Below are positions 1,256 through 49,842 of a stretch of DNA of 64,000 bases, piece after piece (position 1 is the first letter of the stretch; each line of letters opens with the position of its first letter). A program made the position numbers and the translations under genes. The notes beneath the pieces were generated by a model. It saw only the letters and a list, made by a program, of their open reading frames with translations. It was not told the origin of the DNA and searched no databases. Origin of the DNA: Nitrospirales bacterium (GTDB taxonomy: Bacteria; Nitrospirota; Nitrospiria; Nitrospirales; UBA8639); assembly GCA_021604005.1 (NCBI GenBank), contig BQIV01000022.1, positions 1 to 64,000 on the forward strand. Reading direction: 5' to 3'.

Positions 1256-4200
1256 TTACGATTTCTGGTGTTCAGTTTCTGATTGTTCTGCCAACTCTGG
1301 CATGGCCGCCTGTTTCTTTATTTCCCAACTACGCCAAATGATGTAAATGGCTGGTAGGACGAGGAGCGTGAGCAGCAAGGTTGTCACCATACCTCCAATC
1401 ATGGGGGCCGCAATTCGTTTCGTGACATCCGCTCCACTGCCATGGGTCCACATGATAGGAAGCAACCCAGCAATCGTCGACCCGACCGTCATCGTGATAG
1501 GACGTACTCGCTTCACACTCCCTTCTACGACGGTATCGATCAAATCTTTCATCGTCGTCAGGTGACCTTGAGAACGCCCCCAGGCATATGCCTGATCTAA
1601 ATAAGCAATCATGATGATTCCGATCTCGGCGGCCACTCCCACCAAAGCGATAATCCCAACCCAGACAGCGACACTCAGGTCATATTCAAGAAGGTACAAC
1701 GACCAGATAGCGCCGATTGCAGCAAACGGCACTGACAGGAGTACAATGAGGCTCCGCGCGATTGATTGAAAATTCAGATAGAGCAGCAGAAATACAATAA
1801 GAATGGTGAGCGGAACCACATACATGAGTCGAGCTTTGGCCCGTTGCATATATTCATATTGTCCACTCCAATTGAGGTGATAGCCTTGAGGAATTGAAAC
1901 TTGGTCGGCCACAATTTGTTGGGCTTCCTGCACATAACTCCCGAGGTCGCGGCCTGCCACATCGACATACACATACCCGACTAAGAGCGAGCCTTCACTT
2001 TTCACGACAGTGGGTCCTTTCACCAAACTCACCTCAGCCAGTTGGGTGATCGGGATCTGTTGCCCAGTGGATGTGGAGACCAACACACGTTGGAGGTCTT
2101 CCAACGAATTTCTAAAGGCCCGAGAGTATCGGAGATTCACCGGGAACCGCTCTCGTCCTTCAATCGTCGTCGAGATATTCGTTCCCCCAATTGCGGATTG
2201 GATGACCTGTTCCACATCACTGATCAGCAAGCCATAGCGGGCAATTTCCTCCCGTTTCACTTTAAAGTAGACGTAATACCCCTCTCCGGTTCTCTCGGCG
2301 AAAATGTTTCTGGTTCCAGGGACATCGCGGAGGGCTGTTTCCAACTCCCCACCAATGCGTTGAATTTCATCCAAGTCACTGCCGAATATTTTGATACCCA
2401 GTGGTGTACGAATACCTGTCGTGAGCATGTCCAACCGCCCTTTGATCGGCATGGTCCACGCATTGGCTAATCCTGGGACTTGGAGCGCATCATCCAACTC
2501 ATTCTCCAATCGCTCGACGGTCATGCCTGGTCGCCATTGATCTTCAGGCTTAAGATTAATAATGGTTTCGATCATTGTGAGTGGTGCGGGATCGGTCGCC
2601 GTCCTCGCCCGACCGGCTTTACCAAACACACTTTCTACCTCGGGAAATTGCCCAATAATCCGATCTGTGATTTGAAGGGCTCGCTGCATTTCGGTGATGG
2701 AAGCGCCCGGCAGTGTCACAGGCATGTACATCAATGTGCCCTCATACAAGGGGGGCATAAACTCAGATCCTAACTTCGTAAAAGTGGGCCACGTGGCGAC
2801 AAGCCCGAGTACCGCAAGGATGACCATCGTTTTTCGAAAGCGAAAGACGAATCGCGCGATAGGCCGGTACCCAGTGATTAGCAAACGCGCGATGGGATTC
2901 TGGGCTTCGCTTGCAATCTTGCCTCGAACCAATAGCACCATGAGGAGGGGAACCACGGTGATCGACAGTAGCGCCGCAAACCCCATGGAAAAGGTCTTGG
3001 TATAGGCTAAGGGCCGAAAGAGTCGGCCTTCCTGCGCTTCTAAGGTAAACACTGGTAAGAAGGAAACCGTAATGATTAGAAGCGAAAAGAAAAGGGGTTT
3101 GCCCACTTCCTTGGCAGCTTCAATGATCAGGTTCACGCGATCAGCGTCGTTCCCTGCTCGCTCCAGTTTTTTATGCGCGTTTTCCACCATCACAATCGCC
3201 CCATCCACCATGGCACCAATAGCAATGGCGATTCCTCCGAGGGACATGATATTGGAGCTGACGCCTAGGTAGTACATGGCCGTAATAGCCATCAAGATGG
3301 CTAACGGCAGCGTCAGAATAGCGACTAACGCACTACGAACATGGAAGAGAAAGAGGATGGTAATCAGGCTCACAATGACACTTTCCTCAATCAGTTTTTC
3401 TTTGAGCGTCGCGACGGATCGAAGGATCAAATCCGATCGATCATAGGTCGGGATGATTTCGACCCCATCCGGGAGAGCAGGCGTAATCTCCGTGATTTTT
3501 TTCTTGACGCGTTCAATAACATCCAAGGTGCTTTCCCCAAACCGGACGACGACGATACCCCCCACCACTTCCCCGGTCCCATTGAGCTCGGTGAGGCCTC
3601 GCCGAAGATCAGGCCCTAATTCCACGCGGGCAATGTCCTTGAGAAGAATAGGCGTGCCTTTGGCATCCGTCCCCACGGCCACTTGTTCGAGGTCAGACAC
3701 CGATTCCACATACCCACGACCCCAGACCATGTATTCCCGCCCAGTGAATTCAACGACACGACCGCCCACGTCATTGTTACTCATTCGAATCGCATGCATG
3801 ACCTTGTCTAAGGAGAGGTTATAGGCTTGAAGGGCATTGGGCTCCACCTTCACCTGGTATTGCTGCACATACCCCCCAATGCTCGCCACATCCGAGACAC
3901 CAGGGACCGCCTTCAGCCAATAGCGGATATACCAATCTTGCAAGGTGCGTAACTCCGCAAGATCCAACTGTCCTGTGGGATCAACGACGGCATACTCAAA
4001 TCCCCATCCCACGCCGGTGGCATCAGGCCCAAGCGTGGGAGTGATGCCGTCAGGCAAGACTTTCATCGCTTCATTCATGTACTCCAAAATGCGGCTTCGA
4101 GCCCAGTACATGTCGGTGCCATCCTCGAAAATGACATAGATAAAGGACAGCCCAAAAAAGGAATACCCTCGAACGACTTTGACCTTAGGGGCTCCCAACA

Positions 4201-4417
4201 TGGTGGTGACAATCGGATAGGTCACCTGATCTTCCACAAGCTGCGGGGCCTGCCCCGGCCATTCCGTAAAGATAATCACCTGGACATCGGAAAGATCCGG
4301 AATCGCATCCAAGGGCATCACTCGCATCACCCAGACGCCCCAACCAACGAGAACCGCGACAAGCAACAAGACGACAAATCGATTTCTCGCGCTGTATTCA
4401 ATAATTTTTTCAATCAC
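1256..4417 (-). CDS. cusA: CusA-type Cu(I)/Ag(I) RND efflux pump
   Basis: 1053 residues, the usual size for heavy-metal RND transporters, with two repeats of a transmembrane bundle plus a large periplasmic domain. RND proteins of this class exchange protons for metal and form the inner-membrane part of a tripartite CusCBA pump. RLDMLTTGIRTPLGIKIFG in the second periplasmic half corresponds to the methionine-containing segment of E. coli CusA, and FMPPLYEGTLMYMP supplies further Met, favouring monovalent Cu/Ag over Zn/Co. The proton-relay helix region (GAMVDGAIVMVENAHKKLE) is intact. Translation starts at GTG 4417. It follows cusB by 16 bp. Confidence 0.93.
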   Translation of the reverse strand: MIEKIIEYSARNRFVVLLLVAVLVGWGVWVMRVMPLDAIPDLSDVQVIIFTEWPGQAPQLVEDQVTYPIVTTMLGAPKVKVVRGYSFFGLSFIYVIFEDGTDMYWARSRILEYMNEAMKVLPDGITPTLGPDATGVGWGFEYAVVDPTGQLDLAELRTLQDWYIRYWLKAVPGVSDVASIGGYVQQYQVKVEPNALQAYNLSLDKVMHAIRMSNNDVGGRVVEFTGREYMVWGRGYVESVSDLEQVAVGTDAKGTPILLKDIARVELGPDLRRGLTELNGTGEVVGGIVVVRFGESTLDVIERVKKKITEITPALPDGVEIIPTYDRSDLILRSVATLKEKLIEESVIVSLITILFLFHVRSALVAILTLPLAILMAITAMYYLGVSSNIMSLGGIAIAIGAMVDGAIVMVENAHKKLERAGNDADRVNLIIEAAKEVGKPLFFSLLIITVSFLPVFTLEAQEGRLFRPLAYTKTFSMGFAALLSITVVPLLMVLLVRGKIASEAQNPIARLLITGYRPIARFVFRFRKTMVILAVLGLVATWPTFTKLGSEFMPPLYEGTLMYMPVTLPGASITEMQRALQITDRIIGQFPEVESVFGKAGRARTATDPAPLTMIETIINLKPEDQWRPGMTVERLENELDDALQVPGLANAWTMPIKGRLDMLTTGIRTPLGIKIFGSDLDEIQRIGGELETALRDVPGTRNIFAERTGEGYYVYFKVKREEIARYGLLISDVEQVIQSAIGGTNISTTIEGRERFPVNLRYSRAFRNSLEDLQRVLVSTSTGQQIPITQLAEVSLVKGPTVVKSEGSLLVGYVYVDVAGRDLGSYVQEAQQIVADQVSIPQGYHLNWSGQYEYMQRAKARLMYVVPLTILIVFLLLYLNFQSIARSLIVLLSVPFAAIGAIWSLYLLEYDLSVAVWVGIIALVGVAAEIGIIMIAYLDQAYAWGRSQGHLTTMKDLIDTVVEGSVKRVRPITMTVGSTIAGLLPIMWTHGSGADVTKRIAAPMIGGMVTTLLLTLLVLPAIYIIWRSWEIKKQAAMPELAEQSETEHQKS

Positions 4418-4433
4418 GAGATTAGATCCTTTT

Positions 4434-5723
4434 TCAATGTGACATCCCTGGCATCGAACCAGATGGTTCCGTGTTCTTTTTCTTTCTCATTTCCATCCCC
4501 GGCATCATCATCTCCGTCGCCGCCTTCAAGTTACTTTCTGAATCCACAAGAAAATTCCCCCTTGTCACCACCAACTCTCCCGGCTCGATTCCTTCAAGAA
4601 TTTCGTAGGCATCACGCGTGCGCACGCCCACGGTGACCGTGCGCGGCTCGAACATGCCCTGACCTTGATCAATAAACACCAGTTGTTCCGTTCCTGAATC
4701 GAGAACGGCTGTTGTGGGAACGACGAGTCGTTTTCCACGGGGAATTTGTAAATGGATATTGGCAAACATCCCCGGCTTGAGTGTCCATTTGGGATTCGGT
4801 AGTTCGAACCGGACTTTGACCGTCCGGGTTTTGGTTTCTAGGATGGGATACACATAGGTCACCTTTCCTTTGAAGGTTTGTCCTGGAAAGTACGAGAGAG
4901 TCACCGTGGCTTCCTGCCCCAGTTTCACAAGAGGGATTTCATATTGATATACATCTGCAAGGACCCACACCCTCGACAAATTCGCTAAGGTGTAGAGCTC
5001 CATAGCTGGTGTCACATGCATGCCTTCCCGCACAGCCATGTGCAATACATAGCCCGAACTTGGAGCATGAAGGGGCAACGTTCGAAGGACTTTCCCTGTT
5101 TGTTCTAAGTCTTGTATGTGATCGGGGGTAATATCCCACAGCGAAAATCGCTGACGGGTCACGTCCAACAAAGATTTGGCATTTTTAGCAATCTCAGGAA
5201 ATTCGCTGTCTCCAAGGGACCTGACAGCTTTTAACGCCAGCAAATATTCTTCCTGGGTGGACACGAGTTCAGGGCTATAAATCTCAAACAATTTCTGATT
5301 TTTCTGGACGTGCTCGCCCGTAAATTTCACGTAGAGTTCCTGTATCCACCCCTCCAATTTCGTATGCATATGTGTAAGTCGAGTTTCATCAACCTCAACC
5401 TGGCCGACCGTCCGGATGGTGTGCGTGAGATCTCTAATGGCGGCAGGTTCCGTCTTGACCCCAATCATTTGTTGTTTTTGAGGGCTCACCATCACATTTT
5501 TACTCTTGGTGAGCTTTCCGGCTGTCTTTGGGTTTGGAGTTTTTGCCGAATGTATGACGGTGCTTTCTTCTGTGGTTTGCACTGGTTCCATCGGCACGGA
5601 TCGATTCTCCGTCTTCCACCAATAGGCACCAATACCCACCAGGAGGATCACGAGAAGAAGTCCGATCACGAGTAAATGGGTTCGTCCGTAGGGCCTCATG
5701 TTTAAGGGGTGTATCAGTTTCAT
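4434..5723 (-). CDS. cusB: CusB-type periplasmic adaptor
   Basis: 429-residue membrane-fusion protein linking the RND pump with the outer-membrane channel. It has one N-terminal membrane anchor (residues about 15-35), a barrel-sandwich/lipoyl part, and the CusB hallmark IYSPELVSTQEEYLLALKAV. The C-terminus is methionine-rich (MMMPGMEMRKKK and SGSMPGMSH), suggesting copper binding in the periplasm. An alternative start at Met9 (5699) would keep the anchor. Only 6 bp separate it from the upstream TolC-like gene. The E. coli N-terminal Met ligands are not aligned here, so metal transfer is inferred from family and context. Confidence 0.92.
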   Translation of the reverse strand: MKLIHPLNMRPYGRTHLLVIGLLLVILLVGIGAYWWKTENRSVPMEPVQTTEESTVIHSAKTPNPKTAGKLTKSKNVMVSPQKQQMIGVKTEPAAIRDLTHTIRTVGQVEVDETRLTHMHTKLEGWIQELYVKFTGEHVQKNQKLFEIYSPELVSTQEEYLLALKAVRSLGDSEFPEIAKNAKSLLDVTRQRFSLWDITPDHIQDLEQTGKVLRTLPLHAPSSGYVLHMAVREGMHVTPAMELYTLANLSRVWVLADVYQYEIPLVKLGQEATVTLSYFPGQTFKGKVTYVYPILETKTRTVKVRFELPNPKWTLKPGMFANIHLQIPRGKRLVVPTTAVLDSGTEQLVFIDQGQGMFEPRTVTVGVRTRDAYEILEGIEPGELVVTRGNFLVDSESNLKAATEMMMPGMEMRKKKNTEPSGSMPGMSH

Positions 5724-5729
5724 AAGGGG

Positions 5730-7004
5730 TTAATCCTTCGCCACAGCGTTGCCGTGTAAGGGTTGTCCAATCACTTCTTCGATCCTCGCGATGGCAATTT
5801 CATGGTCGGTCGTTTGCCGATGGAGATCCAACTCGTCTTGCTGCAGCTTGAGCACATTGTCGAGCATAGTCAGGAAGTCCACTTTTCCAACCCCATACCC
5901 GGCCATCGAGGATTCAAGGGCCAACGACGCTTGAGGAATAATGGCGCCACCAATCAATTTCACCAGGCGTGCCGCTCGTTGGACACGGACCACGTTATCT
6001 TTCATCCGAAACACCGCGTTCTGCAACACCGCGTCATAGTTCTTCCGTGCGCCTTCCAAATTCGCCAGCGCTTCCTTTTCGCCATAGCGTTGTTTCGTTG
6101 AATAGTAGAGCGGTATCTTGATGCCGAACATGCCAAAGGCATCGGTTAACTCATCTGAGCGAAATGACTGCATGGTTCCCAAAGTGACCACAAAATCCGG
6201 ATAATATTCTCGCTGGGCTAACGCTAAGGATGATTGACTTTTTTCAATGCCATGCGCTTGAACCTGCAGAAGTGGAGACTGTTGCTTCACTAAGCTGGTG
6301 AGTTCTTCAAGACTGTAAGGTAACGGTGTGAGCGTAGGTTCCTCAGGTTTTCCCATTGGCGCGGTCGGTGGTCGATTGAGAATACGATTGAGCTCCGCCG
6401 TGACCGTCTGTTGTTCCTGCTTCAAGCTGGTCAATCGTTCCATTTCTCGCGACAATTCGACTTGCGCGCGAAACACATCTTGCTGAATCCCTTTCCCAAC
6501 TTTGTAACGGACCTCCGCTGTCTTCTCCAGCTCTTTAAGGATCATGAGATTTTTCTTCACGACTTCAATCGACTCATGAATAAAATGAAGGTTGAAATAG
6601 GCAACTTTCAACTGGGCGATCACTCGAAGTTGAGTGGCACGGTACACTTTGCTGACTTGATCGGCCGCCTTGGAGGCCACTTTGCCTTTCAGCCCGAGTT
6701 TCCCTGGAAATGGAAATTGCTGTTGGATCTGGAACCGTCCTTCTCTCATGATGTCAGGACCGCGATAGCCAAACCCTAGAACTGGATCAGGCAGAGATTG
6801 GACTTGAGGAATAGACGCTTTTGTGGCTTCCCATCGATGTCTGGCTGTCTGAATTTCCGGATTCCGTTGAAAGGCTTCTTCGACAAGTGTTTGCACTTTC
6901 AAGGGAGTCTCAGCACCCAGAACTGACAAACCTGAGATGATAGACAGCCACAGCCCTAAGACAAATATTTTGAGGTATGAACATTGGAGCTGAAACACTT
7001 CCAT
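5730..7004 (-). CDS. TolC/CusC-family outer-membrane efflux channel
   Basis: 424 residues with an N-terminal signal sequence (residues about 10-31, ending VLGAET) and two outer-membrane-efflux repeats rich in long helices. The opening segment LVEEAFQRNPEIQTARHR and the PQVQSLPDPVLGFGYRGPDI region are typical of channels that accompany CusBA/CzcBA pumps. No lipobox cysteine follows the signal, so unlike CusC of E. coli it does not look like a lipoprotein. First of the three pump genes in the transcription direction (channel, adaptor, pump). Confidence 0.9.
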   Translation of the reverse strand: MEVFQLQCSYLKIFVLGLWLSIISGLSVLGAETPLKVQTLVEEAFQRNPEIQTARHRWEATKASIPQVQSLPDPVLGFGYRGPDIMREGRFQIQQQFPFPGKLGLKGKVASKAADQVSKVYRATQLRVIAQLKVAYFNLHFIHESIEVVKKNLMILKELEKTAEVRYKVGKGIQQDVFRAQVELSREMERLTSLKQEQQTVTAELNRILNRPPTAPMGKPEEPTLTPLPYSLEELTSLVKQQSPLLQVQAHGIEKSQSSLALAQREYYPDFVVTLGTMQSFRSDELTDAFGMFGIKIPLYYSTKQRYGEKEALANLEGARKNYDAVLQNAVFRMKDNVVRVQRAARLVKLIGGAIIPQASLALESSMAGYGVGKVDFLTMLDNVLKLQQDELDLHRQTTDHEIAIARIEEVIGQPLHGNAVAKD

Positions 7005-20489: not shown

Positions 20490-21101
20490 TTACGGTACGT
20501 CGTGTTGCTTCGACCCAAGAGGAAACGAAATAATAATACCACCCATCACGTCACCAAGCTTGTGGTCGCGTTTCGCACTGAGAATATGAGTATTATGACA
20601 ATTTGCACAGGTCTTCGAAACGGCTTTATCAGCATAAATAGCTTTAAAATATTTTTTCTCGCCGCGTGTAATAATTCCAGTGTATGGTTGACTAGGATCT
20701 TTGACGACGGCTTCAAGTCCTTTCGTTTCAAATTCGGTGCTCGGACCATTCCGCTCATAAATTGGCCATAAACTCGCCAACCGAAATTGTAACCCAAAAC
20801 CCTGCTCCTTGACCTCAAGACCAGACAGCAAGAGCATTTGAGCAGGAAGAGGTAGCGTCCCACGTTTCTTCCAGCCTTCTGAAGCCAATACCGTTCCCGT
20901 GTCTTGCATGCGGGATACGACATGTGTGGCATACAACGTTCTGTCTGCCTGAATCACAGCATGGAGATAATCAGCAACAACTTGGGGAGAAATACCTGCC
21001 GCAACCTCGGCATCTTGAGCATCGGACCGTGGAACAGCACTCACGAATACGAGCGGGAGGACGAAAAAAACAACACGAAGCATTGATTGATAGTGTGTCA
21101 T
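20490..21101 (-). CDS. Exported DUF3365 (Tll0287-like) mono-haem protein
   Basis: 203 residues with a cleavable signal (ending SAVPRSDAQ). The central region is the DUF3365/Tll0287-like fold, a PAS-like haem-binding domain used as a redox sensor or sensor-kinase input. Near the C-terminus is one haem-c motif CANCHNTH in the family context (DKAVSKTCANCHN). The start has AAAGGAG 9 nt before the ATG. It has no kinase or output domain, so it may be a soluble periplasmic redox or gas-sensing protein working with a neighbour such as the cupredoxin-like protein. Confidence 0.82.
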   Translation of the reverse strand: MTHYQSMLRVVFFVLPLVFVSAVPRSDAQDAEVAAGISPQVVADYLHAVIQADRTLYATHVVSRMQDTGTVLASEGWKKRGTLPLPAQMLLLSGLEVKEQGFGLQFRLASLWPIYERNGPSTEFETKGLEAVVKDPSQPYTGIITRGEKKYFKAIYADKAVSKTCANCHNTHILSAKRDHKLGDVMGGIIISFPLGSKQHDVP

Positions 21102-21219: not shown

Positions 21220-22131
21220 CTAATGTTGAAGTTCAACTGAAGGAACAATTTTTGAGTCACCTAATAATTCCATTCCAAATCTCGTATTCTCCTGCGCCTC
21301 ATTGGCATACAAACGCCCTTTAGGAGCTTCAAAATCCACAGACACATCTGTGGTTTCATTTGACGTGATCGTCACGGACAATTCTTTCTGAACCATCGGA
21401 TGCCAGATGACGACCTTGTACGTGCCAGGAGGAATATGATCGATGGTGAAGGTTCCCCGTTGGTCGCTCACCGCAAAATAGGGAGAATCCATCGCCACCC
21501 CCCAACTTTCCATGTAGGGATGAAATCCGCATTGCATAGCAAAAATATTTCGCCCACGCTTCATTTTAATTTTTGGACTGACAATCCGCCCAGCTCGATT
21601 CTTCACCTTTTTGCCAGCCATCAAATCTTGTTTTTTTAGTTTTGGACTCACCGGTAACGGAAGATTAAAAAGAACGCGGGCTCCCATCTTTGAGGTTTCG
21701 TACGCTTGAATATCATGCATGACAGGGTCCATATTCACGACCTTCACTTCATGACGATCACGAACCACGGTAATATATGGAGCAAATTTGCAATCAATCG
21801 CTTCAATATGAGGAGGCGTGTAGTCAAACTTCTTGCCTTTTTTGATTCCCTCAATAAAAATGACAACATTTTGAAATTGCCCTTCTGGCCCGATTTGAAA
21901 TGGCTGAAGTAACCGCCATCCGTTACCATTTGATATACGACCACAATAGGAAGGGTCTGGAAAACTTACAAGATTATAGCCTTTTGGATTCGGGAGTTCT
22001 CCCTGAAGCGTAATGACTCCGGACAGCGTCCCACCACCCTCTACTTGAATTTCTTCGTACTTTGCCAACGCAGACTGAGTCCATGTTCCCAGGCTCAAGA
22101 CGAATACAACACACAGCACTCCCGATCTCAT
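21220..22131 (-). CDS. Exported cupredoxin-like protein with carboxypeptidase-regulatory-type domain
   Basis: 303 residues from the ATG at 22131, which has AAGGAGG; an in-frame start further up is unsupported. After a signal peptide (ending SALAKYEE) it has a SGVITLQGELPNPKGYN segment, a cupredoxin-like part with VMHDIQAYE and MQCGFHPYMESW (His...Cys-x2-His-x2-Met, as in type 1 copper sites), and a C-terminal Ig-like domain (GTFTIDHIPPGTYKVVIWHP). It could carry electrons to or from the multicopper oxidase encoded upstream. A terminator separates the two genes, so it is probably transcribed on its own. Confidence 0.78.
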   Translation of the reverse strand: MRSGVLCVVFVLSLGTWTQSALAKYEEIQVEGGGTLSGVITLQGELPNPKGYNLVSFPDPSYCGRISNGNGWRLLQPFQIGPEGQFQNVVIFIEGIKKGKKFDYTPPHIEAIDCKFAPYITVVRDRHEVKVVNMDPVMHDIQAYETSKMGARVLFNLPLPVSPKLKKQDLMAGKKVKNRAGRIVSPKIKMKRGRNIFAMQCGFHPYMESWGVAMDSPYFAVSDQRGTFTIDHIPPGTYKVVIWHPMVQKELSVTITSNETTDVSVDFEAPKGRLYANEAQENTRFGMELLGDSKIVPSVELQH

Positions 22132-22203
22132 CAGCACCTCCTTACGACTAGAATCCCTAAGCCTCATTCGCTCTATCCAAAACATCTTACCAGAATTGCA
22201 GTC

Positions 22204-22266: not shown

Positions 22267-25200
22267 TCATTTGAATGATGCTGGAGTCGGTGTGATCGAC
22301 TCCGACTGGTCGCCCTGAGCCGTCTTGGTTCCTGAAGCGGTACCATGTAACGGAAGGACACTCTGATCAGTAGACGGGAGCACTCGTAGGTATCCCCATT
22401 GACCTGACTGTGAGTATGGCAACCGTCCATTACTCCAGACATAATCACCTGGCATAGCCCAATTCCCGCCTGCAGATGGAAGATACACATCCAAGCCTTC
22501 CGAACCGGAGAACTCGACGGTACTGATCATGTCAGCACCTGGGAGGAACGGTTCAAGCGGCCATTCATGTTTTTCGACGGTGAACATACCGTTCTGTTCA
22601 CTACTGGCGCCAAATACATGGATACGGACCTTATCCCCTGCGTGGGCGAGAATCAGAGGAGTTGCCGGGTCTTGTGGATCATCGACTTCGCATGGTTGAA
22701 ACATCTTGCCCAATGTACAGCCAACCTCTTCCCGGTACAAATAGGGTTCGGCTCGGTAGTTGACGCCGGTTAATCCGGCCACATTTTGGACATACGGCAT
22801 GAAACTCGTGCCGATAATATTATCTTCGTCCTGGAAATATAACGCCACATCACGATAATTCTCCCGGCGTTCATTTCCTTGGATGGTACGATCCACAATC
22901 ACATCCGCATTCCAACTATTCTTGAGAGAAATATCTTCGCCGGTTTTTGGGTCACGGTACGTGGATCCCTGTGGTCCGATAATGATACCGCCAAATAACC
23001 CATTGCGAGGATTCATCGACACATTCCCCCAATCCCATACCAACGTCTGTCCTTCTCCATTAAACGGATCGGCATAGTAGGTATAGACTCGAGACTGTCC
23101 AGGAGCCACGGTTTGATCCCCTGGATTATTTCCAAGGTTCACCCCTTGTGAATCTTTGGGGTCAAAGGCTAAGCCGAACGCCGAGAATGACGCCTTGCCT
23201 TTTTTCAATTTATTCGTCAGTTTCACTGTGATGCAATCACCGACGTTTGCTCGTAAGGTCAACGGCATCGGTTGCGCATCTCCAGATACCTTTTGCACTT
23301 CATCTTCAAGGACGTAGATCTTGGCTTCGGGATTGCGCAACTCAATCTTTCGTTCAAAATCCACTTCGATGGATTCCTCCGCATTGGGATTGAAACTCAT
23401 CCCCGGGTGGTCAATCGCCACGACATTAAAGTTTTTCACCGGGGCATCTTTTGGACAAACCGGAAGTCGCTTTGGCATTCCTTCAGCGCCATACGCCTTA
23501 TTAGGCAATGGTTGGAGGTCCGCAACAGGTTCATCCAACACTCGCATGATCCCCCAAGCCCCTTCCGAAAACTTCGAACTTCGACCGTTAAAGAACATGT
23601 AATCGCCTGCCTGATGTCGAGGTCCACCTGCTTCGGCAAGCACGAGGTCATACCGTTCCGCAATCCCAATATGTAAGGAATTCTTGCGATTGGCCTCCTG
23701 GGCATATCGCTCAGACCAGAAGGTATGTCCCGACACGGTAAAGACATTGCTTTCATTCATGGTTACGTCTAACAAACGGAAGACCACGGCATCACCCAAG
23801 TAGGCACGAATCATCGCCGTACTCGGATCACCGTGGACCACACTGCTAAAGATCTTTGATGAATCCGGATTGTTCGCCAATCGTTGGGCAAATGGTTCAG
23901 CCCGGAAATTCAACGCCCCACCGGTGGTATGAGTCCCACCATTTAAAAATGGCATCGGGGTCATTTTAATTTTGTCATTTGGAGGCATAATAAATGAGAC
24001 AGTCCGACCGGCCTCCAATGCCACATCAACTGGTTGGCCAGGTGGATTCCCAGCCGTCACGATATTCACCGTATGTGGAACCGTGTCCATAATATGCACC
24101 ATGAGTTCACGAAAACTTCCGGCCACATCATGTCCCACACGTTCCGTCGCATGAATATCCGCCACTGGACCTGTCCTGATTGACTCCCCAGTTTTGGGAT
24201 CATGCCAGGTCGAACCAAAGGGTTCAGCAATCATGGTCCCCACAGCTCCGTGCGGCCATGTTGTTCCTCCGAAGGCATGGTCATGCCAAAACACACTTCC
24301 AACATCGGCATCCACCCAGAACCGTTGACGGACATATTCAACCGTCACGATATCGCCCACAGGATGACTATGTTCCAATGGCCGGGCAAAGGTTAACGTG
24401 TCGCCAGTAATGTTGGTAATGCGCTTCACCTCTTGACCTTTGACGTTATCAGCTCCAACAAGAATCGGAATACCAACATGATATTGTTTCGCATTCGTCA
24501 CGTGGAGCGTCTTGTCTCCTTTCTTCGAGGCTTTTGTGACTTTCGCATTCATCGGAATTGGCAACCCTTTTTTCGAAGGCTTTTCGAATTGGGTAAAGGG
24601 CCGCATGGACTGCTCATACGAAAATCCGGAAATCACGCCATCAGAGGCCTGGTTGTCAAACTGGAAAAAATGGAAGTGCGTATTAATTTTTGACGACTGA
24701 AAATTCGTAATGTCATCGTCCAACCATTCACTCGTCAATGTCCAATCAATGCAGTCATAGACATTCGCGCGAACAACCAATGGAAATTTCTTATCGTTAT
24801 TGGCTCGAACGTCAGCTTCTTCTTCATGGACCACATATAAAAGCCCATTTGGATCGACAATTGCTGGCTCTTTCCCCTGTGCCGCCGATAATTCAATCGG
24901 CAATTTAATAAAATGCACATTGTAATCTTGAGAGCCTGCTCGATCGGGACACAAACTCCAATTCCCGTTTTCTCCAGCTTTGGCCGGACCAACCGACCGT
25001 GTGCCATCATCGTTGAGCCGAATCATTTCTAACCAGGGAGCGGGATTGTGATCGTTGGAAAACGGTGCCCGCTTCCCAAAGTGTGGCGTCAACCATGGCC
25101 ACGCCACTTTCCCTGTCGTTGGCTCAAACCAAATGGTTCGCCGTTCCCCAGGTGCATAGCCTTGCCGCTCAGGATGATATTTGGGGTTCTCACCTAACGT

Positions 25201-27174
25201 CGGTTCTTTCTCACTCATGGCCTTGCTGCCGTCCCACACCCAATCCAACACCGTGGCATCATAGGCCTTCAGTTGACCAAGCTCATCATCGTTATGCCCT
25301 GGTCTACCTTGATTACTCAGCTGCATTTCGACCCAGTCCTTAATATTGACCACTGCAGGTTTGGCTTTCCAGTCACTCTTTCCTGATCCTACGATTTTAA
25401 ATGTTGAACCAAACCAGTTCACCGTTTTGCCCACCAATTGATCTGACGGCACAGGCTTGTGAATCCGATCAAGACGATCCGGTAATTCACGTAGGGGCGG
25501 CATCACATCATTTTGGAAACCTGGAACCTGCAGGGTGTTATACACTCTCCAGTATCCCCACATGCCAGCGACATAATGATGCGCGACATGGCAGTGAAAT
25601 AAAAAGTCTCCCGCCAACCATTGGCACAAACCTGAACCACATTCGGTTTCTAAATCCAAGGCTTCCGAAGGCCCAATGACTTCAACATCGACTCGGTCTG
25701 ACTTGGTTCGAACGATCGGATATTTCACTGGACCGTTCTGTCCTGTGCTCCACACCGGCATTTGCGTCGCTCGTGGGCTGCGTTGCCACCGTATCGAACC
25801 CCCATGCGGGTGATGTGAATGGAAGACTTCTGATCCCCCGTGTACGATACGGAACTTCGCTGGATCACCGAGGTAACTCCGAGGAATCGTCGGTGCCGCA
25901 TCTCCAAAGGTGTAAGAGCTGTAGGCCATGGACTCATCTTCGAAACCAAAATGTTCATGCTGTACATGCATGTTGTTAATGCCGAACGGCTCGCTACGAT
26001 AGTTCAAGGCCCGTGCACCTGGACGATAGGCATCGGTTAGCGGATCACGTTGAGGCAGAAAATCACCATGCTTATTCACTGGCCGAAACGCCTCGTCTCC
26101 CACTTCGTGATAAATCAACACGAACTCTCGAAAGCTGGGACCAGTTCCGTTTTCAATCATGACTTGCCACCCACTCCTCGCTTCCGTGGCCGGACCTGTC
26201 CCGACTGGCTCCCAATATTTCGATCCTCGCGGTTCCACGACAAAAACCCCAAACAATCCCATGACGGTTAACTCACGATCGTTACTAAACGTATGAAATT
26301 GCTTCCCACCTTCTTGCGTATCTGGATGGATATACCATTCCATGTCAATCGATTCACCTTCTGCACCTTCTTCTGCATCCTCATCAGCACCAGAAGCGAC
26401 GGAATCGGGATTTGTCGTAGTGGCCGGTTGCCCCGTTTTACTCATCACCATATCTGAGCCATTGATGTGAAGACTGACGTCCTCTCCAAATTCTAGTTTG
26501 TTTCGCAGAGTAATCTTGACGCAGTCCCCCTGATTACCACGAATCACCAGTGGCTGAATCCATTGATCCTGAATGCCATTGTTGACCGCACCAGGGTTAC
26601 TATGCCCTTCAGATTCCCGTGCCTCTGCATTCTTGGCTTCTTCTTCTCGTATTTTCTCAATGTCTTCCGTGAGGGCATACATATACCCAGGATAATAATC
26701 CAGCCACTGATTTAACGAGATCTCGACATTGATCGCTGAGATGTCATATTTTTTCACTGGTGCCGTCGCAGGACATCGGCCCCCTTTATTGGAGACAGGC
26801 TCTTGCCCCGTCGTGGAAGCGAGAAGACCATTGGCTGGTCCAGCACCATATTGATGCATCATCGACATCGAGTTATACGCACCAGTATTATCTTTTTCGT
26901 GACCCATTTCCTTCTGCATCTGTTCCATAAGTCGTTGATGCTGCAGTTCCACTAACGCCGCACGCTCAGCTCGACCTTCCACAGAATTTTCGACAATCGT
27001 CTGTCCCTTTAATCGCTCGGCCCATCCTTTTCGATCCTGGCTCATCGCCACGGAATGGATGCCCGCTGATGGATCTTCGGCCACTCCCATCGACGGAGCA
27101 CCCAAGAGGAGCGCTCCTCCTAACGCTCCGAGCCACCACCTTGCACGTAATGCTTGACCTGTACGCGTAAACAT
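22267..27174 (-). CDS. Giant secreted multicopper oxidase (MofA/McoA-like architecture)
   Basis: 1635 residues with an N-terminal signal peptide (about 1-32). All four copper motifs are present but in permuted order: HSHHPHG (H452, H455, H457), HCHVAHHYVAGM (H527, C528, H529, H532/H533, axial M538), then HFHFF (H833, H835) and WHDHAFGG (H964, H966). So the motifs usually at the C-terminus come first. Together they would give one type 1 copper and one trinuclear cluster. Residues 1000-1635 add cupredoxin-like repeats without copper ligands. Length and permuted order recall the putative Mn(II) oxidases MofA, McoA and MnxG; the substrate is not proven. An acidic stretch (SGADEDAEEGAEGES, about 261-275) is notable. 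AAGGAGG precedes the ATG, and a sigma-54 promoter lies upstream. Confidence 0.9.
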   Translation of the reverse strand: MFTRTGQALRARWWLGALGGALLLGAPSMGVAEDPSAGIHSVAMSQDRKGWAERLKGQTIVENSVEGRAERAALVELQHQRLMEQMQKEMGHEKDNTGAYNSMSMMHQYGAGPANGLLASTTGQEPVSNKGGRCPATAPVKKYDISAINVEISLNQWLDYYPGYMYALTEDIEKIREEEAKNAEARESEGHSNPGAVNNGIQDQWIQPLVIRGNQGDCVKITLRNKLEFGEDVSLHINGSDMVMSKTGQPATTTNPDSVASGADEDAEEGAEGESIDMEWYIHPDTQEGGKQFHTFSNDRELTVMGLFGVFVVEPRGSKYWEPVGTGPATEARSGWQVMIENGTGPSFREFVLIYHEVGDEAFRPVNKHGDFLPQRDPLTDAYRPGARALNYRSEPFGINNMHVQHEHFGFEDESMAYSSYTFGDAAPTIPRSYLGDPAKFRIVHGGSEVFHSHHPHGGSIRWQRSPRATQMPVWSTGQNGPVKYPIVRTKSDRVDVEVIGPSEALDLETECGSGLCQWLAGDFLFHCHVAHHYVAGMWGYWRVYNTLQVPGFQNDVMPPLRELPDRLDRIHKPVPSDQLVGKTVNWFGSTFKIVGSGKSDWKAKPAVVNIKDWVEMQLSNQGRPGHNDDELGQLKAYDATVLDWVWDGSKAMSEKEPTLGENPKYHPERQGYAPGERRTIWFEPTTGKVAWPWLTPHFGKRAPFSNDHNPAPWLEMIRLNDDGTRSVGPAKAGENGNWSLCPDRAGSQDYNVHFIKLPIELSAAQGKEPAIVDPNGLLYVVHEEEADVRANNDKKFPLVVRANVYDCIDWTLTSEWLDDDITNFQSSKINTHFHFFQFDNQASDGVISGFSYEQSMRPFTQFEKPSKKGLPIPMNAKVTKASKKGDKTLHVTNAKQYHVGIPILVGADNVKGQEVKRITNITGDTLTFARPLEHSHPVGDIVTVEYVRQRFWVDADVGSVFWHDHAFGGTTWPHGAVGTMIAEPFGSTWHDPKTGESIRTGPVADIHATERVGHDVAGSFRELMVHIMDTVPHTVNIVTAGNPPGQPVDVALEAGRTVSFIMPPNDKIKMTPMPFLNGGTHTTGGALNFRAEPFAQRLANNPDSSKIFSSVVHGDPSTAMIRAYLGDAVVFRLLDVTMNESNVFTVSGHTFWSERYAQEANRKNSLHIGIAERYDLVLAEAGGPRHQAGDYMFFNGRSSKFSEGAWGIMRVLDEPVADLQPLPNKAYGAEGMPKRLPVCPKDAPVKNFNVVAIDHPGMSFNPNAEESIEVDFERKIELRNPEAKIYVLEDEVQKVSGDAQPMPLTLRANVGDCITVKLTNKLKKGKASFSAFGLAFDPKDSQGVNLGNNPGDQTVAPGQSRVYTYYADPFNGEGQTLVWDWGNVSMNPRNGLFGGIIIGPQGSTYRDPKTGEDISLKNSWNADVIVDRTIQGNERRENYRDVALYFQDEDNIIGTSFMPYVQNVAGLTGVNYRAEPYLYREEVGCTLGKMFQPCEVDDPQDPATPLILAHAGDKVRIHVFGASSEQNGMFTVEKHEWPLEPFLPGADMISTVEFSGSEGLDVYLPSAGGNWAMPGDYVWSNGRLPYSQSGQWGYLRVLPSTDQSVLPLHGTASGTKTAQGDQSESITPTPASFK

Positions 27175-27320
27175 TCAACGGCCTCCTTATTAAGATAAAT
27201 ATGTCCTGACAAATATTCAGGTGTGACACACAACCGACATGTGCTTGCGTCTTTTTAGCGTCTCTCGTACGTCTGGTAAGGTCATCCAAAATCCTCGAGG
27301 TGAGGTATTGAATAAAATTT

Positions 27321-27400
27321 GTGTCGGTGAAGGGGTCTTGAAAAGAACAGTTGGGCACTCCGGAGGCCGGTCCATCACACCCTGGCCCTTCACCGACACC
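27321..27400 (-). promoter_or_regulatory. Long hairpin in the 5' leader of the multicopper oxidase mRNA
   Basis: On the minus strand GTGTCGGTGAAGGG (27399-27386) pairs perfectly over 14 bp with CCCTTCACCGACAC (27334-27321), enclosing about 50 nt with an inner CTCCGGAG palindrome. The 3' arm is followed by AAATTTTATT. The 5' arm begins about where transcription from the sigma-54 promoter at 27426-27411 should start. CTGTTCTT occurs both before the 5' arm and in the loop. It may protect the mRNA end, attenuate transcription or bind a regulator. Confidence 0.7.
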
Positions 27401-27410
27401 ACAAGAACAG

Positions 27411-27426
27411 AGCAACCTTAATGCCA
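27411..27426 (-). promoter_or_regulatory. Sigma-54 promoter of the multicopper oxidase gene
   Basis: Minus strand TGGCATTAAGGTTGCT, a GG-N10-GC match with the -24 (TGGCA) and -12 (TTGCT) elements. It is 237 bp upstream of the oxidase start and downstream of a gene for a sigma-54 activator. Confidence 0.85.
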
Positions 27427-27647: not shown

Positions 27648-29054
27648 TTATTGAATATTGTACGTTTTGAGTTTGTTGTACAGATTCGCTCGACTGATGT
27701 TGAGTCGACGGGCAGCACGTGTTTTGTCGCCTTGAGTTTCTTGCAGAGCCTTAAGAATTTCCTGCTTTTCGACCAGCTTCCGAGCGGCTTTGCTCATGGA
27801 GGGGAGGTCTACAGACTGATCCACATGATCATGGGAGGGGAAAATACCCTGAATGGTTAATTCGGGGCTGTGAGCGATGACCACCGCACGTTCAATCACA
27901 TTCTCTAACTCCCGTACATTACCGGGCCAATCACGGCTGACCAATGCTTCCATAGTCGCGGCGGGAATGCTCGGTCCGATTCTCCCGTTTTTAAGACAAG
28001 ATCGCTCCAAGAAGTGATTCACGAGGAGAGGAATATCCTCTCGCCGATCTCGCAGAGGAGGAACGGTCAGAGGAAGCACGGCAAGCCGATAGTAGAGATC
28101 CAAACGAAATGTGTGTTCTTCGACAAGACGTGTGAGCGGCTTATTGCATGCAGAAATGACCCGAACATTCACTTTAATGGGACGATTCCCGCCAACGGGT
28201 TTTATTTCACCTTCTTGTAAGACTCGAAGGAGTTTGGCTTGAAACGTCGGAATGGTATCGGCAATTTCGTCTAAAAATATCGTGCCCCCTTCGGCTTCTT
28301 CAAACAGACCTTTTCGGTCTGTCACAGCCCCTGTAAACGCACCTCTAACATGCCCAAACAATTCACTTTCCAGCAACGTTTCCGGCAAAGAACTACATTC
28401 GACAACAACAAAGGGATGATCGCGACGCGGGCTTAGCTGATGGATGGTCTTCGCGACCAATTCTTTCCCGGTGCCGCTTTCTCCCTGGATCAATACCGTC
28501 GACTCCGACTGAGCGACTAACCGAATCATCTCGATGAGTTGTTGCATCGAGGCACTCTGTCCAATCAACCCCGGATATTGATTGTGTTCCTTTTGAGACG
28601 CACGAGCATCATCGAATAAGGAGGAAGCAAGTGTTCCTCTCCACACCTTCGTGTCTTCCGGGGCTGTTCCCATCATGACGACACAGGCCACATCCCCTTC
28701 CGCTCCAGGGACCGGAAACGATGTCGGAAACGGACACGAAGGGTCATCATGATGAACGGTTAACGTTCCTTCGTAATTTAATGACCTCTTTGCGACATGT
28801 TGTTCGGCCGGGCAAGTCTCGCAACGCTCGGGGGTGGCGACTTCGGAATCTGGACAATCCGTGGGCATTTCACGTAAGAGAGGACACTGTGCTGCGATGT
28901 CAGCTGCTGAAGAATTCGAATAGACAAGTTTCAAGGTTGGATCAAAGATCACGATAGGCTCAGAAACTTGATCGGCAAGAAGTGTTAAGGCTTGCAGACG
29001 AGAGGATAATCCAGAATTATGTTCGAACGCAGACTCTGAAAACGATCCGGCCAT
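27648..29054 (-). CDS. Sigma-54-dependent activator with Cys-rich PAS-like sensor domain
   Basis: 468 residues: an N-terminal PAS-like domain (about 20-130), an AAA+ domain and a C-terminal Fis-type helix-turn-helix ([19 protein letters not shown]). Walker A GESGTGKE (191-198), the sigma-54 contact loop GAFTG (238-242) and Walker [10 protein letters not shown] (256-264) are intact. The sensor carries Cys57, Cys67, Cys78, Cys81, Cys107 and Cys124, including a CETCP pair, so it may sense a metal, haem, Fe-S or redox signal directly rather than by phosphorylation. It sits immediately upstream of the multicopper oxidase gene and 21 bp after a receiver-domain gene, and is the prime candidate for the oxidase regulator. 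Confidence 0.9.
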
Positions 29055-29075: not shown

Positions 29076-29561
29076 TCACGAGTTGGGCCATTCTATAGAG
29101 TTCTGACACGTTTGAGGCTTGACAGACTTGACGACAGGACAAACTTGTTGAAGAGCTGCCTTAAGATCCTTCACGCGAACAGGCTTATCAAAATAGGCAG
29201 CAACTCCACAAGCCTGCGCTTCCTGTTTCGTTTGTGAATTCCCGAAGGCCGTGATCAAGATTATCGGACAATTTTGAACAGAAGCCGCAACGTTTCGTAG
29301 ATACTCAAACCCTCCACCAGGCATTTTTAGATCTGTAATGATTAAGTTTGGTTCATAGAGCTTAATGTGGGAAAGAGCTTCATTTCCATCTGATGACTCA
29401 ATAACGTTGCATCCATTTTCACTCAGCTCATCTACCAATAGGCTTCTCATCGCAGAATCGTCATCGACAACCAGTATCGTACAGCTACTCACCTGCTCAC
29501 ACTTCGAATTCAAGTTGCGACTCCCAATTCCAAAAGGCAGTTTACCTTGTGAACGGCTCAT
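29076..29561 (-). CDS. Single-domain response regulator (CheY-like)
   Basis: 161 residues. The receiver domain begins at TILVVDDDSAMRSLL, with the phospho-acceptor Asp in LIITDLKMPGGG, the Thr in ITAFG and the Lys in YFDKPVR. There is a 25-residue N-terminal extension and a short tail (VCPVVKSVKPQTCQN), both with Cys, but no output domain. Co-transcribed with the activator gene that follows (21-bp gap), it may feed a kinase signal into that regulator. A cognate kinase is not next to it; the PAS kinase at 45083-47014 is one candidate. Confidence 0.88.
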   Translation of the reverse strand: MSRSQGKLPFGIGSRNLNSKCEQVSSCTILVVDDDSAMRSLLVDELSENGCNVIESSDGNEALSHIKLYEPNLIITDLKMPGGGFEYLRNVAASVQNCPIILITAFGNSQTKQEAQACGVAAYFDKPVRVKDLKAALQQVCPVVKSVKPQTCQNSIEWPNS

Positions 29562-29595: not shown

Positions 29596-29611
29596 AGCAA
29601 GTCAAGTGCCA
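29596..29611 (-). promoter_or_regulatory. Sigma-54 promoter of the receiver/activator operon
   Basis: Minus strand TGGCACTTGACTTGCT, essentially the consensus (TGGCAC-N5-TTGCT) with correct GG-N10-GC spacing, 35 bp before the start of the receiver gene. It suggests that the activator promotes its own expression. Confidence 0.87.
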
Positions 29612-30417: not shown

Positions 30418-30753
30418 TTAGTGATTGCTTGATTCTTGAAAATCTTGGCAGCACTCATCAGCCGCTCCTCGTTGATGATCACGCTTCATACCTCCATGCA
30501 TTCCGTGCCGGCCTCTGCCACCATTCATTCCGTGACAGTTCACACATGTCCCTTTTCCTTCATACAGTGCCTTTCCTTTTGCGACCGTTTCTTCCGTGTA
30601 TGGAATAGGGTTTCTAAGGGCACGCGCTTCTTCCAACTTATCCGCCGGTACACGTGAATGCATCATGTGTTGACCCTGTTGCGCAGTTGCTCCTGCTGCA
30701 TGGCTTATCACAGAAATACTTATGAGAAAAAATGCGAAATTTCTGAAGTACAT
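30418..30753 (-). CDS. Small c-type cytochrome with His/Met-rich tail
   Basis: 111 residues with a signal peptide (ending AAGATAQQ) and one haem motif CVNCH. The segment VPADKLEEARALRNPIPYTE and GKALYEGKGTCVNCHG closely resembles the cytochrome at 50746-51249. After the haem the sequence departs into a short Gly/His/Met-rich tail with a CC pair (GMHGGMKRDHQRG, DECCQDF) and has no clear axial methionine domain end. It is either a specialised metal-binding variant or a 3'-altered paralogue. A sigma-54-like promoter lies upstream. Confidence 0.75.
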   Translation of the reverse strand: MYFRNFAFFLISISVISHAAGATAQQGQHMMHSRVPADKLEEARALRNPIPYTEETVAKGKALYEGKGTCVNCHGMNGGRGRHGMHGGMKRDHQRGAADECCQDFQESSNH

Positions 30754-42066: not shown

Positions 42067-43337
42067 CTACCCTTGCATTTAAAACCTCCTTTTTTGTGTC
42101 CTTTTCTACATAACTCTGTGGTCATGTCCCAATTTGCGACGATACCCACTTCCTTTTGTGTAGATTTTCGCTACGCTCTGGTCTGTAATTACAGACCATT
42201 CATCACTAAAGGCACACATCCTTTGGCACTGTGCTTGCTGGATAATATGTAACGAAACGATAATTGAATGATAAAAACATTCTCTTTCTTCCTTGCGCCT
42301 TGTTCATTCCTTTCTTCTTGTAAGAGATAGTATTCATTTGAATGTCCTTCTCGAACTTCTCATCCTCATTGTACTTGCCAGGGTCTTCGGTGAGGCGGCT
42401 GAACACCTTGGACAGCCCTCTGCAGTCGGCGAACTCAGCGCCGGCGTCATGCTGACAGCAGCCGCTTCCCTGTAGGGACCGTCTATTCCTATTTTCACTC
42501 ATTTGCTCACAAGTCAGACTCTAGAAGAGATTGCCCAAGTTGGAATTTTTTCTCTAGTCCTGTTAGCGGGGATTGAATCGAAACTCGACGAACTTCGCCA
42601 AAATTCTGGCAGCGCCATTTTTGTCGCCCTTGGGGGTGCCCTTGTTCCGCTGATAGCAGGATTCATCTTGGGATGGCTGTTTCTTCCCGAATCAGACGTG
42701 AAATCCGTACAGGCACTTCTGATAGGTATCACCATGTCAATCACCTCGATGCCAGCCACCATCAAGGTCCTGACAGATTTGGGTTACTGCATTCAAGAAT
42801 CGGACAGACCATTGTTGGTGCAGCCATTGTTGACGATATTCTAGGGTTATTCTTACTCGCTCTTGTAACGATGATGATTCAAACCGGGCATATCCCGGCC
42901 CCATTGGCTTTCGCGGTACTTCTAGGCAAGGTAATACTTTTCTTCGGCATCGCTATCAGCCTTGGTATACATGTCTACCCCAGAGTTAGTCAGAACCTTA
43001 AAGCGTTGCAACTCGCTACCGTGGAGTTCAGCGCTCTGATGGTAGTGGCACTTGCATACGGTCTCCTTGCTGAAGCTCTGGATCTGCATTGGATTTTGGG
43101 CGCTTTTATGGCAGGGCTCTATTTTGAACCGAGTCGGGTTGGTCAGGAAGCGTATCAAGAAATGGAGTTGATCGTGACAGGCATTACTCAAGGGGTTCTT
43201 GGACCACTATTTTTTATTTGGATAGGACTCAATGTGGCATTCGAAACTGTTCTGCAAATTCCAATGTTTATCCTCTTCCTCTTAATCATCGCCTTTTGCG
43301 GAAAACTCATTGGTTCCGGCCTGCCTGCTTACTGGCT

Positions 43338-48898: not shown

Positions 48899-48914
48899 TG
48901 GCATTGCTCTTGCT
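48899..48914 (+). promoter_or_regulatory. Sigma-54 promoter of the Usp gene at 48979
   Basis: TGGCATTGCTCTTGCT, GG-N10-GC with strong -24 (TGGCA) and -12 (TTGCT) elements, 65 bp before the start codon. Confidence 0.85.
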
Positions 48915-48978: not shown

Positions 48979-49842
48979 ATGAAGTTACTCGTTGCTATAG
49001 ATGGTTCGAGTCAGTCAACAGATGCTGTTCATGCTCTTGCACATTTCAGACCTCCAGAGGAATTAACTCTCGTGCATGCACTGACACTACCCGAATTAGA
49101 CCATCCCATGATTACCACTGAAGTTCGAGATCAAGTGCGTGACGATATCGAAAAAAAATTACGTCAAGAGGGAAATGCCTTACTCTCCAATATTGTTACG
49201 GAGTTGCCTCAGGACTTTGGTCCCGCACAACAAATTCATCAAATAGGATCTCCAGCTCAGGTCATTCTCGAGACCGCACAGTCGGTCCAGCCTGACGTGA
49301 TCCTATTAGGTGCACGGGGATTGGGACAAGTCAAAGAACTGATGTTGGGCAGTGTTTCTCACCGTACCGTGCTCCATGCGCCTTGTTCGACCTTTATTTT
49401 TAAAAGACCATTGCCCACGTTAGGGAAAATTCTCTTGCCCATCGAGGGAGAAGAGGATGCGCAAGTGGCGTTCAAATTATTAGCAGCGAAGCCCTTTCAT
49501 GAGCGGGTGGAAATCCAACTCATGCTGGTATGGCCTCAGCCTCAGACTCCTTGGCCTCTCACGTTGTGGCAAAGCAAGCAGCTGGAAGAACATGCGATGA
49601 CTCATGCGCAAGAACAGCTCGACTCTCTCACCGTAAAACTTGAGACCATGGGATACCCAGCCATCAGCTATGTTGGATTAGGAGATCCTTCGTTCGCCAT
49701 CATAGAACAACAACGTGCCAACAAGGCCGACATGATTTTGATGGGCTCTCATGGAAGACACGGGATTTCTCGCTTCTTGCTTGGAAGTGTTTCCCACAGC
49801 GTGCTTCATCAGGCAGACTGTCCAGTATTAATCCTGCGCTAA
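48979..49842 (+). CDS. Universal stress protein, two Usp domains
   Basis: 287 residues, MKLLVAIDGSSQSTDAVHAL at the start. Nucleotide loops: GARGLGQVKELMLGSVSHRT in domain one and GSHGRHGISRFLLGSVSHSV in domain two. Close in order and length to the Usp proteins at 37070 and 60530. It is transcribed divergently from the NtrC-type regulator gene and preceded by a sigma-54 promoter. AAAGGATAGATGAA precedes the ATG. Confidence 0.92.
   Translation: MKLLVAIDGSSQSTDAVHALAHFRPPEELTLVHALTLPELDHPMITTEVRDQVRDDIEKKLRQEGNALLSNIVTELPQDFGPAQQIHQIGSPAQVILETAQSVQPDVILLGARGLGQVKELMLGSVSHRTVLHAPCSTFIFKRPLPTLGKILLPIEGEEDAQVAFKLLAAKPFHERVEIQLMLVWPQPQTPWPLTLWQSKQLEEHAMTHAQEQLDSLTVKLETMGYPAISYVGLGDPSFAIIEQQRANKADMILMGSHGRHGISRFLLGSVSHSVLHQADCPVLILR

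Follow-up and report, generated by a model that had tools for sequence, protein, structure and literature searches.

What does a 1635-residue multicopper oxidase (MCO) do in a bacterium with a nitrifier-like background, and what controls its gene? The question is raised by the window analysed here, a stretch of 64,000 nucleotides from a Nitrospirales bacterium (positions 1 to 64,000 of contig BQIV01000022.1, assembly GCA_021604005.1), in which an initial annotation had described a secreted oxidase with permuted copper motifs, akin in size and order to enzymes linked to Mn(II) oxidation. In the current work, we computed the architecture, copper ligands and conservation of this protein, and also characterized its partner, its promoter and the structure of its leader RNA. 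The strongest new result is the co-placement of the promoter, the start of the RNA and one gene family.

The oxidase and its copper site

The gene occupies 22267–27174 on the minus strand and encodes, from an ATG start and in an intact frame, 1635 residues, as the initial annotation had given. A Pfam search returned Cu-oxidase_3 and Cu-oxidase_2 over the cut-off, including a Cu-oxidase_3 match at residues 1303–1402, and the best solved structure by sequence was MnxG (PDB 9bxa, E 1.6e-74). The four copper motifs that had been named are all present, at the positions and in the order described, and like the gene they read on the minus strand. Motif C, HSHHPHG (residues 452–458; 25801–25821), holds a type 1 histidine and two trinuclear histidines, with H452, H455 and H457 invariant. 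Motif D, HCHVAHHYVAGM (527–538; 25561–25596), is likewise invariant and provides Cys528, His533 and Met538 to the type 1 copper and His527 and His529 to the trinuclear site. Motif A, HFHFF (833–837; 24664–24678), and motif B, WHDH (963–966; 24277–24288), follow, with H833/H835 and H964/D965/H966 invariant, respectively. The claim of a full ligand set for one type 1 copper and one trinuclear cluster thus held for all twelve positions: H452, H455, H457, H527, C528, H529, H533, M538, H833, H835, H964 and H966 are invariant across 18 homologues reaching down to ~41% identity. A larger alignment has 81 rows, including two ORFs picked in error, and keeps each of the twelve columns in 78–80 rows. Because the ligand columns persist in this way across homologues, the motifs are not a product of chance.

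Profile comparison with hhalign divided the protein into three mutually homologous units (E 5e-30 to 7e-43), located at residues 128–560 (25495–26793), 738–1228 (23491–24963) and 1236–1612 (22339–23469), all on the minus strand. Each unit comprises two domains, and the protein is therefore a six-cupredoxin oxidase; the cupredoxin-like repeats proposed earlier for its C-terminal part are confirmed by the same comparison. No copper motif was recognized in the third unit, which Pfam also assigns to Cu-oxidase_3. The C/D ligands lie in the second half of unit 1, home to the type 1 copper and to one half of the trinuclear cluster; the A/B ligands lie in the first half of unit 2, which supplies the other half of the cluster. 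Judging from this arrangement, we expect the one copper site of the protein between domains 2 and 3. Ceruloplasmin, another six-domain oxidase, uses domains 6 and 1 for its active site. A site between domains 2 and 3 explains the permuted motif order without anything unusual. The AlphaFold model of residues 126–1236 was poor (mean pLDDT 54, and below 50 in the active-site stretch); the composite site consequently rests on homology.

The motif order itself is real, and opposite to that of three-domain laccases and CueO, in which A/B are N-terminal and C/D are C-terminal; here C/D (452–538) precede A/B (833–966). Its supposed novelty, however, did not stand. The same order is found in MnxG 9bxa and its 1228-residue Priestia homologue, in further giant plasmid-borne homologues with recognizable motifs, and in the Pseudomonas-type MnxG proteins of other Nitrospirota, so that a permutation unique to the window protein was rejected. 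The type 1 histidine position is Ala in PDB 9bxa (HCHLYPAF) and His in the Priestia protein (HCHLYPHF); we suppose that the former is an engineered variant.

A signal-like stretch at the N terminus agrees with the earlier description of the protein as secreted. A second MCO copy in the same genome (L023, contig C4, 8090–13228) has a LysM-like peptidoglycan-binding insertion at about residues 933–1001, which supports a periplasmic location.

Relation to MnxG and to earlier work

The phylogeny that the initial annotation had proposed as a check was run with the MnxG types as the one family covered out of MofA, McoA and MnxG. In two trees, the Nitrospiria MCOs form one clade that stands beside the MnxG types and is separate from them, with support of 100/100. 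The suggested kinship is thus right at the level of the MnxG superfamily but not for membership within the MnxG types. The nearest relative of the clade in both trees is a Streptomyces plasmid protein (L131:4329-9647), also the nearest relative found outside Nitrospirota (32% over 90%), whose gene adjoins one for CopC.

Comparison with the known systems gives the same picture. MnxG of the Bacillus-type Mnx complex (9bxa) and its Priestia homologue share with the window protein the six cupredoxins, the placement of C/D before A/B, and a single type 1 plus a single trinuclear site; they differ in length (~1220 versus 1635 residues) and belong to a separate clade. The gene arrangement differs as well, since the Priestia MCO is preceded by two small genes in the MnxE/MnxF position, whereas the window MCO is followed by a cupredoxin gene. 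The Priestia protein in the MnxF position had no match in the window genome, which is a weak test as it lacked a positive control. Against NCBIfam NF041487, the MnxG equivalog, the window protein scored 129.6 bits, far below the curated cut-off of 3100. As the Priestia homologue of the solved MnxG itself scores only 332.6 bits, this model covers the Pseudomonas type, from which the window protein also differs by its separate clade. A different giant oxidase that does fit the Pseudomonas-type model, and has the same motif order as the window protein, occurs in another Nitrospirota class and in the window's own order (L155:3033-9512 and L154:4405-9999; 2150 and 821 bits).

The passages of Lucker et al. 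2013 on this enzyme (PMC3578206) describe a MnxG-like MCO as highly conserved in nitrite oxidizers, including Nitrospina gracilis and Candidatus Nitrospira defluvii, as is the window family, and propose that it makes Mn(III) against reactive oxygen; they mention no partner, promoter or RNA. Three proteins of the window family are encoded by N. defluvii (FP929003). The Manganitrophaceae each encode two novel MCOs (PMC9040806). With these enzymes already described, we claim no discovery of the family. What is new is found outside 22267–27174, namely the partner cupredoxin, the sigma-54 promoter and the leader RNA.

Occurrence, partner and gene neighbourhood

Every one of the 133 near-complete genomes in the class (Nitrospiria) has an MCO homologue; N. 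moscoviensis and Candidatus Nitrospira defluvii FP929003 are among the named relatives. Outside the class, the matches listed were no more than weak and partial, and fell on other giant proteins. In the window genome, a second copy, ~76–81% identical, resides on another contig. The nitrifier-like background that had been suspected is borne out by NxrA fragments at three contig ends of the genome, 98% identical to those of a relative; the host is, by its gene content, a nitrite oxidizer. Such cuts of nxrA at contig ends (G000 contigs C14, C15 and C23; also G002 and G003) probably arise from near-identical copies collapsing in assembly. Membership of the MCO in an nxr cluster was rejected, the nearest N. 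defluvii copy being ~60 kb from nxrA. Cytochrome 579, used as a marker of Leptospirillum-type genomes in the class, was over the cut-off in none of the genomes; in the window, a small CxxCH protein weakly similar to it is encoded at 30418–30753, upstream of the regulator genes. One contig labelled as an Opitutales MAG (L047) has an MCO 85% identical to that of the window, with the same RNA and promoter, and is probably mis-binned.

The gene downstream of the MCO (21220–22185, minus strand) encodes a 321-residue protein with a small cupredoxin and a carboxypeptidase-regulatory-like domain, and it is probably exported. Across 32 sequences, its residues H157, C219, H222 and M225 do not vary. The AF2 model is of good quality (pLDDT 84), and the top Foldseek matches are mostly cupredoxins (Cupredoxin_1, the Nitrosopumilus purple cupredoxin, amicyanin and plastocyanin; TM ~0.6 by target length). 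The retained H, C, H, M set and the fold found in the search are those of a small blue-copper cupredoxin. Among 101 loci with a flank of 900 bp or more, 77 have a relative of this partner downstream of the MCO, in most cases less than 300 bp away; several partner-less loci have short flanks, a tandem second MCO, or a third context that lacks the partner. That a small cupredoxin gene follows most of these MCOs is new here.

Three contexts recur. In the first, which is regulated, a receiver protein and a sigma-54 activator precede the MCO and its partner, often with a Tll0287-like protein. The second consists of the MCO, one or two partners, an uncharacterized protein and a HEAT-repeat protein, and the third contains a histidine kinase and an NtrC gene. 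The window MCO belongs to the first context and the genome's other copy to the second. In the window, this neighbourhood lies on the minus strand and comprises a Pfam-assigned Tll0287-like protein with CxxCH (20490–21101), which co-occurs in many window-type loci; a sigma-54 activator with AAA+ and Fis HTH domains, in which no receiver domain was found (27648–29054), conserved upstream of window-type MCOs; and a stand-alone receiver-domain protein (29076–29561), conserved with the activator.

The neighbours of the plasmid-borne relatives differ in kind. CopC, CopC/CopD, YcnI, CusA/CzcA, a metal-sensing repressor and a heavy-metal P-type ATPase flank several of the giant plasmid homologues, which makes copper a serious rival substrate. 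The enzyme would then be a giant CueO-like protective oxidase of periplasmic Cu(I) or Fe(II), with the cupredoxin as a copper chaperone. The window itself has a CusB-type RND efflux operon (1256–7004), encoding a CusB/HlyD-type adaptor and an outer membrane factor, which could serve as a metal exporter and would fit such a role. However, it is ~15 kb from the MCO, beside which no copper regulator or CopC was seen; metal resistance is over-represented on plasmids; and Priestia, with the closest homologue of the solved MnxG, likewise has CopC/CopD next to that gene. We regard a role in copper or iron homeostasis as rather unlikely.

A predicted sigma-54 promoter

A consensus scan places a sigma-54 −24/−12 promoter, TGGCATTAAGGTTGC, at 27412–27426 (minus strand), with the predicted +1 at the start of the RNA described below. 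It shows GG at −24 and GC at −12 with the right spacing, is conserved, and has an activator gene nearby, as a sigma-54 promoter should. The strict pattern stands upstream of 17 of 27 close MCO orthologues, where 0.007 per region is expected, and upstream of none of the 55 MCOs in the 66–80% identity group. The window contains four strict sites versus 0.28 expected. The second, at 29597–29611 (minus strand), is upstream of the receiver/activator pair; the others are at 42224–42238 (+) and 48899–48913 (+), the last just ahead of the gene for a universal stress protein at 48979. What is new is that the window-type paralogue has a predicted sigma-54 promoter with activator and receiver genes upstream. 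A parallel is known from P. putida, in which mnxG and mcoA have sigma-54 promoters that are activated only with Mn (PMC11930936); the case is analogous and does not prove what the substrate is.

A predicted structured leader RNA

Directly after the promoter, a perfect inverted repeat of 14 bp encloses a conserved core, and the same element, with arms that differ yet remain complementary, precedes MCO paralogues 51–63% identical to the window protein. By covariation and covariance modelling, it is predicted to be a conserved structured leader RNA of ~85 nt (27317–27401, minus strand) that forms a three-way junction with a covarying P1. RNAalifold found 8 of the 11 pairs of the outer stem changed on both sides. 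The 24-pair junction had a covariation score of 0.403, compared with 0.217 ± 0.011 for shuffled alignments (none of 500 as high, a count that is not a probability because the leader sequences are related) and with at most 0.162 when the pairing partners were slid. Single leader sequences fold to the same structure. The apical helix may be drawn as CGG/CCG or GGA/UCC, both being (nearly) invariant and hence indistinguishable. The core is near-invariant and there is an invariant GGACCGGCCUCC hairpin.

As the inverted repeat is long and close to a sigma-54 promoter, with an activator gene adjacent, it could also be a DNA operator for that activator rather than an RNA. We consider this very improbable. 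The distant arms change completely between relatives while remaining complementary, which a sequence-specific protein would forbid, and enhancer sites are normally found farther upstream than about −80 and do not lie at +1.

The covariance model detects the leader in 91 of 147 class genomes, spanning 17 genera. Of 138 genomes drawn from the phylum, 27 had a match, all of them in the class, and matches outside it numbered zero. An MCO lies at most 1.5 kb downstream in 30 of 30 fetched loci, and 54 of 54 further matches for which MCO coordinates were given are 136–534 bp before an MCO; on these 84 matches (another 23 were left out), the leader is in every case just upstream of the MCO. Its position relative to the promoter is almost as strict: the −24 GG stands 50–53 nt before the leader core in 56 of 58 elements, the relaxed sigma-54 pattern being present in 2.6% of random 55-nt stretches, and P1 begins 11–17 nt past the −12 element, i.e. 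at the predicted transcript start. Variant RNAs with the core GGACCGGCCTCC and other flanking helices precede two MCOs of the histidine-kinase/NtrC context (L031:12102-12192 and L088:9696-9786) and score only 18.9–24.6 bits with the model.

A covarying structure and a conserved core in a 5′ leader are what is expected structurally of a riboswitch, and we regard the element as a candidate riboswitch or other cis-regulatory leader. No Rfam 15 family reached its gathering threshold, and assignment to a known riboswitch was rejected. The metal riboswitches in Rfam (yybP-ykoY for Mn, NiCo) are likewise structured leaders before a putative metal-handling gene; the leader at 27317–27401 matches neither them nor any other family there. 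A literature search found no paper joining Nitrospir*, riboswitch and copper oxidase. An intrinsic terminator after P1 was rejected, as a run of at least four U occurs in only 9 of 58 copies.

How the leader acts can be read in two ways. It might represent a new, Nitrospirales-restricted riboswitch class that senses the oxidase's metal or another ligand and, together with the sigma-54 system, switches on the oxidase–cupredoxin operon; a ligand sensor is favoured by the near-invariant core, and we put forward this full reading tentatively, at somewhat short of an even chance. Alternatively, the leader may be a small RNA transcribed with sigma-54, an element to which a protein binds, or a 5′-end stabilizer of the long MCO mRNA, which is close to evenly balanced in our judgement. 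Its start at the predicted +1, at a nearly constant spacing, the U-rich tracts after some copies, and the invariant hairpin, which could base-pair with a second RNA or be bound by a protein, would all suit such a role. A near-invariant core within freely varying, covarying stems and a strict tie to one gene family are, on the other hand, usual for cis-regulatory ligand-binding leaders.

Proposed function

From these data we infer the O2 chemistry, the periplasmic location, the flow of electrons and the role of the RNA as follows. The protein would be a multicopper metallo-oxidase of the MnxG superfamily with six domains, exported to the periplasm. Its type 1 copper in domain 2 would take single electrons from a reduced metal substrate and pass them via the His-Cys-His bridge to the trinuclear site between domains 2 and 3, where O2 would be reduced to water, and the small cupredoxin encoded next to it may be its electron or copper partner. 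Expression of the window paralogue would be conditional, the receiver protein and the sigma-54 activator opening the −24/−12 promoter, and a folded RNA at the head of the transcript would adjust expression, most likely as a sensor for a metal or small ligand. Taken as a whole, the proposal of a periplasmic metallo-oxidase with a cupredoxin partner under sigma-54 and RNA control seems to us somewhat more probable than its negation.

The substrate is a matter of guesswork. With modest confidence, Mn(II) appears the likeliest for such a metallo-oxidase, though we would guess it at less than an even chance; Cu(I) or Fe(II) would be less likely, and something else less likely again. The curated MnxG cut-off missed by far, the separate clade and, as a weak test, the missing match to MnxF speak against the proposal as a whole. 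Our guess is that the enzyme is there to detoxify metals or to protect against oxidative stress through Mn(III), and not to gain energy.

We also considered that the MCO–cupredoxin pair might be an accessory O2-reducing branch fed by periplasmic carriers, not a metal oxidase at all. The gene is a class-wide core gene and is usually paired with a type 1 cupredoxin, Nitrospira lack canonical haem-copper oxidases (PMC7078480), and the Manganitrophaceae carry two MCOs too (PMC9040806). However, the MnxG-type relatives are enzymes acting on metals, a soluble oxidase that does not pump would be wasteful of energy, and conditional sigma-54 control of one paralogue would be odd for core respiration. 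We therefore hold an electron-transfer role to be improbable, and retain the metallo-oxidase.

Nitrospira are among the most widespread nitrite oxidizers, and the oxidase is present in every near-complete genome of the class examined. A leader tied solely to the MCO gene is a direct handle on the oxidase's role. The ligand or signal of this leader would point to the substrate of the enzyme, and also to the reason why nitrifiers keep a giant manganese-oxidase-like enzyme.
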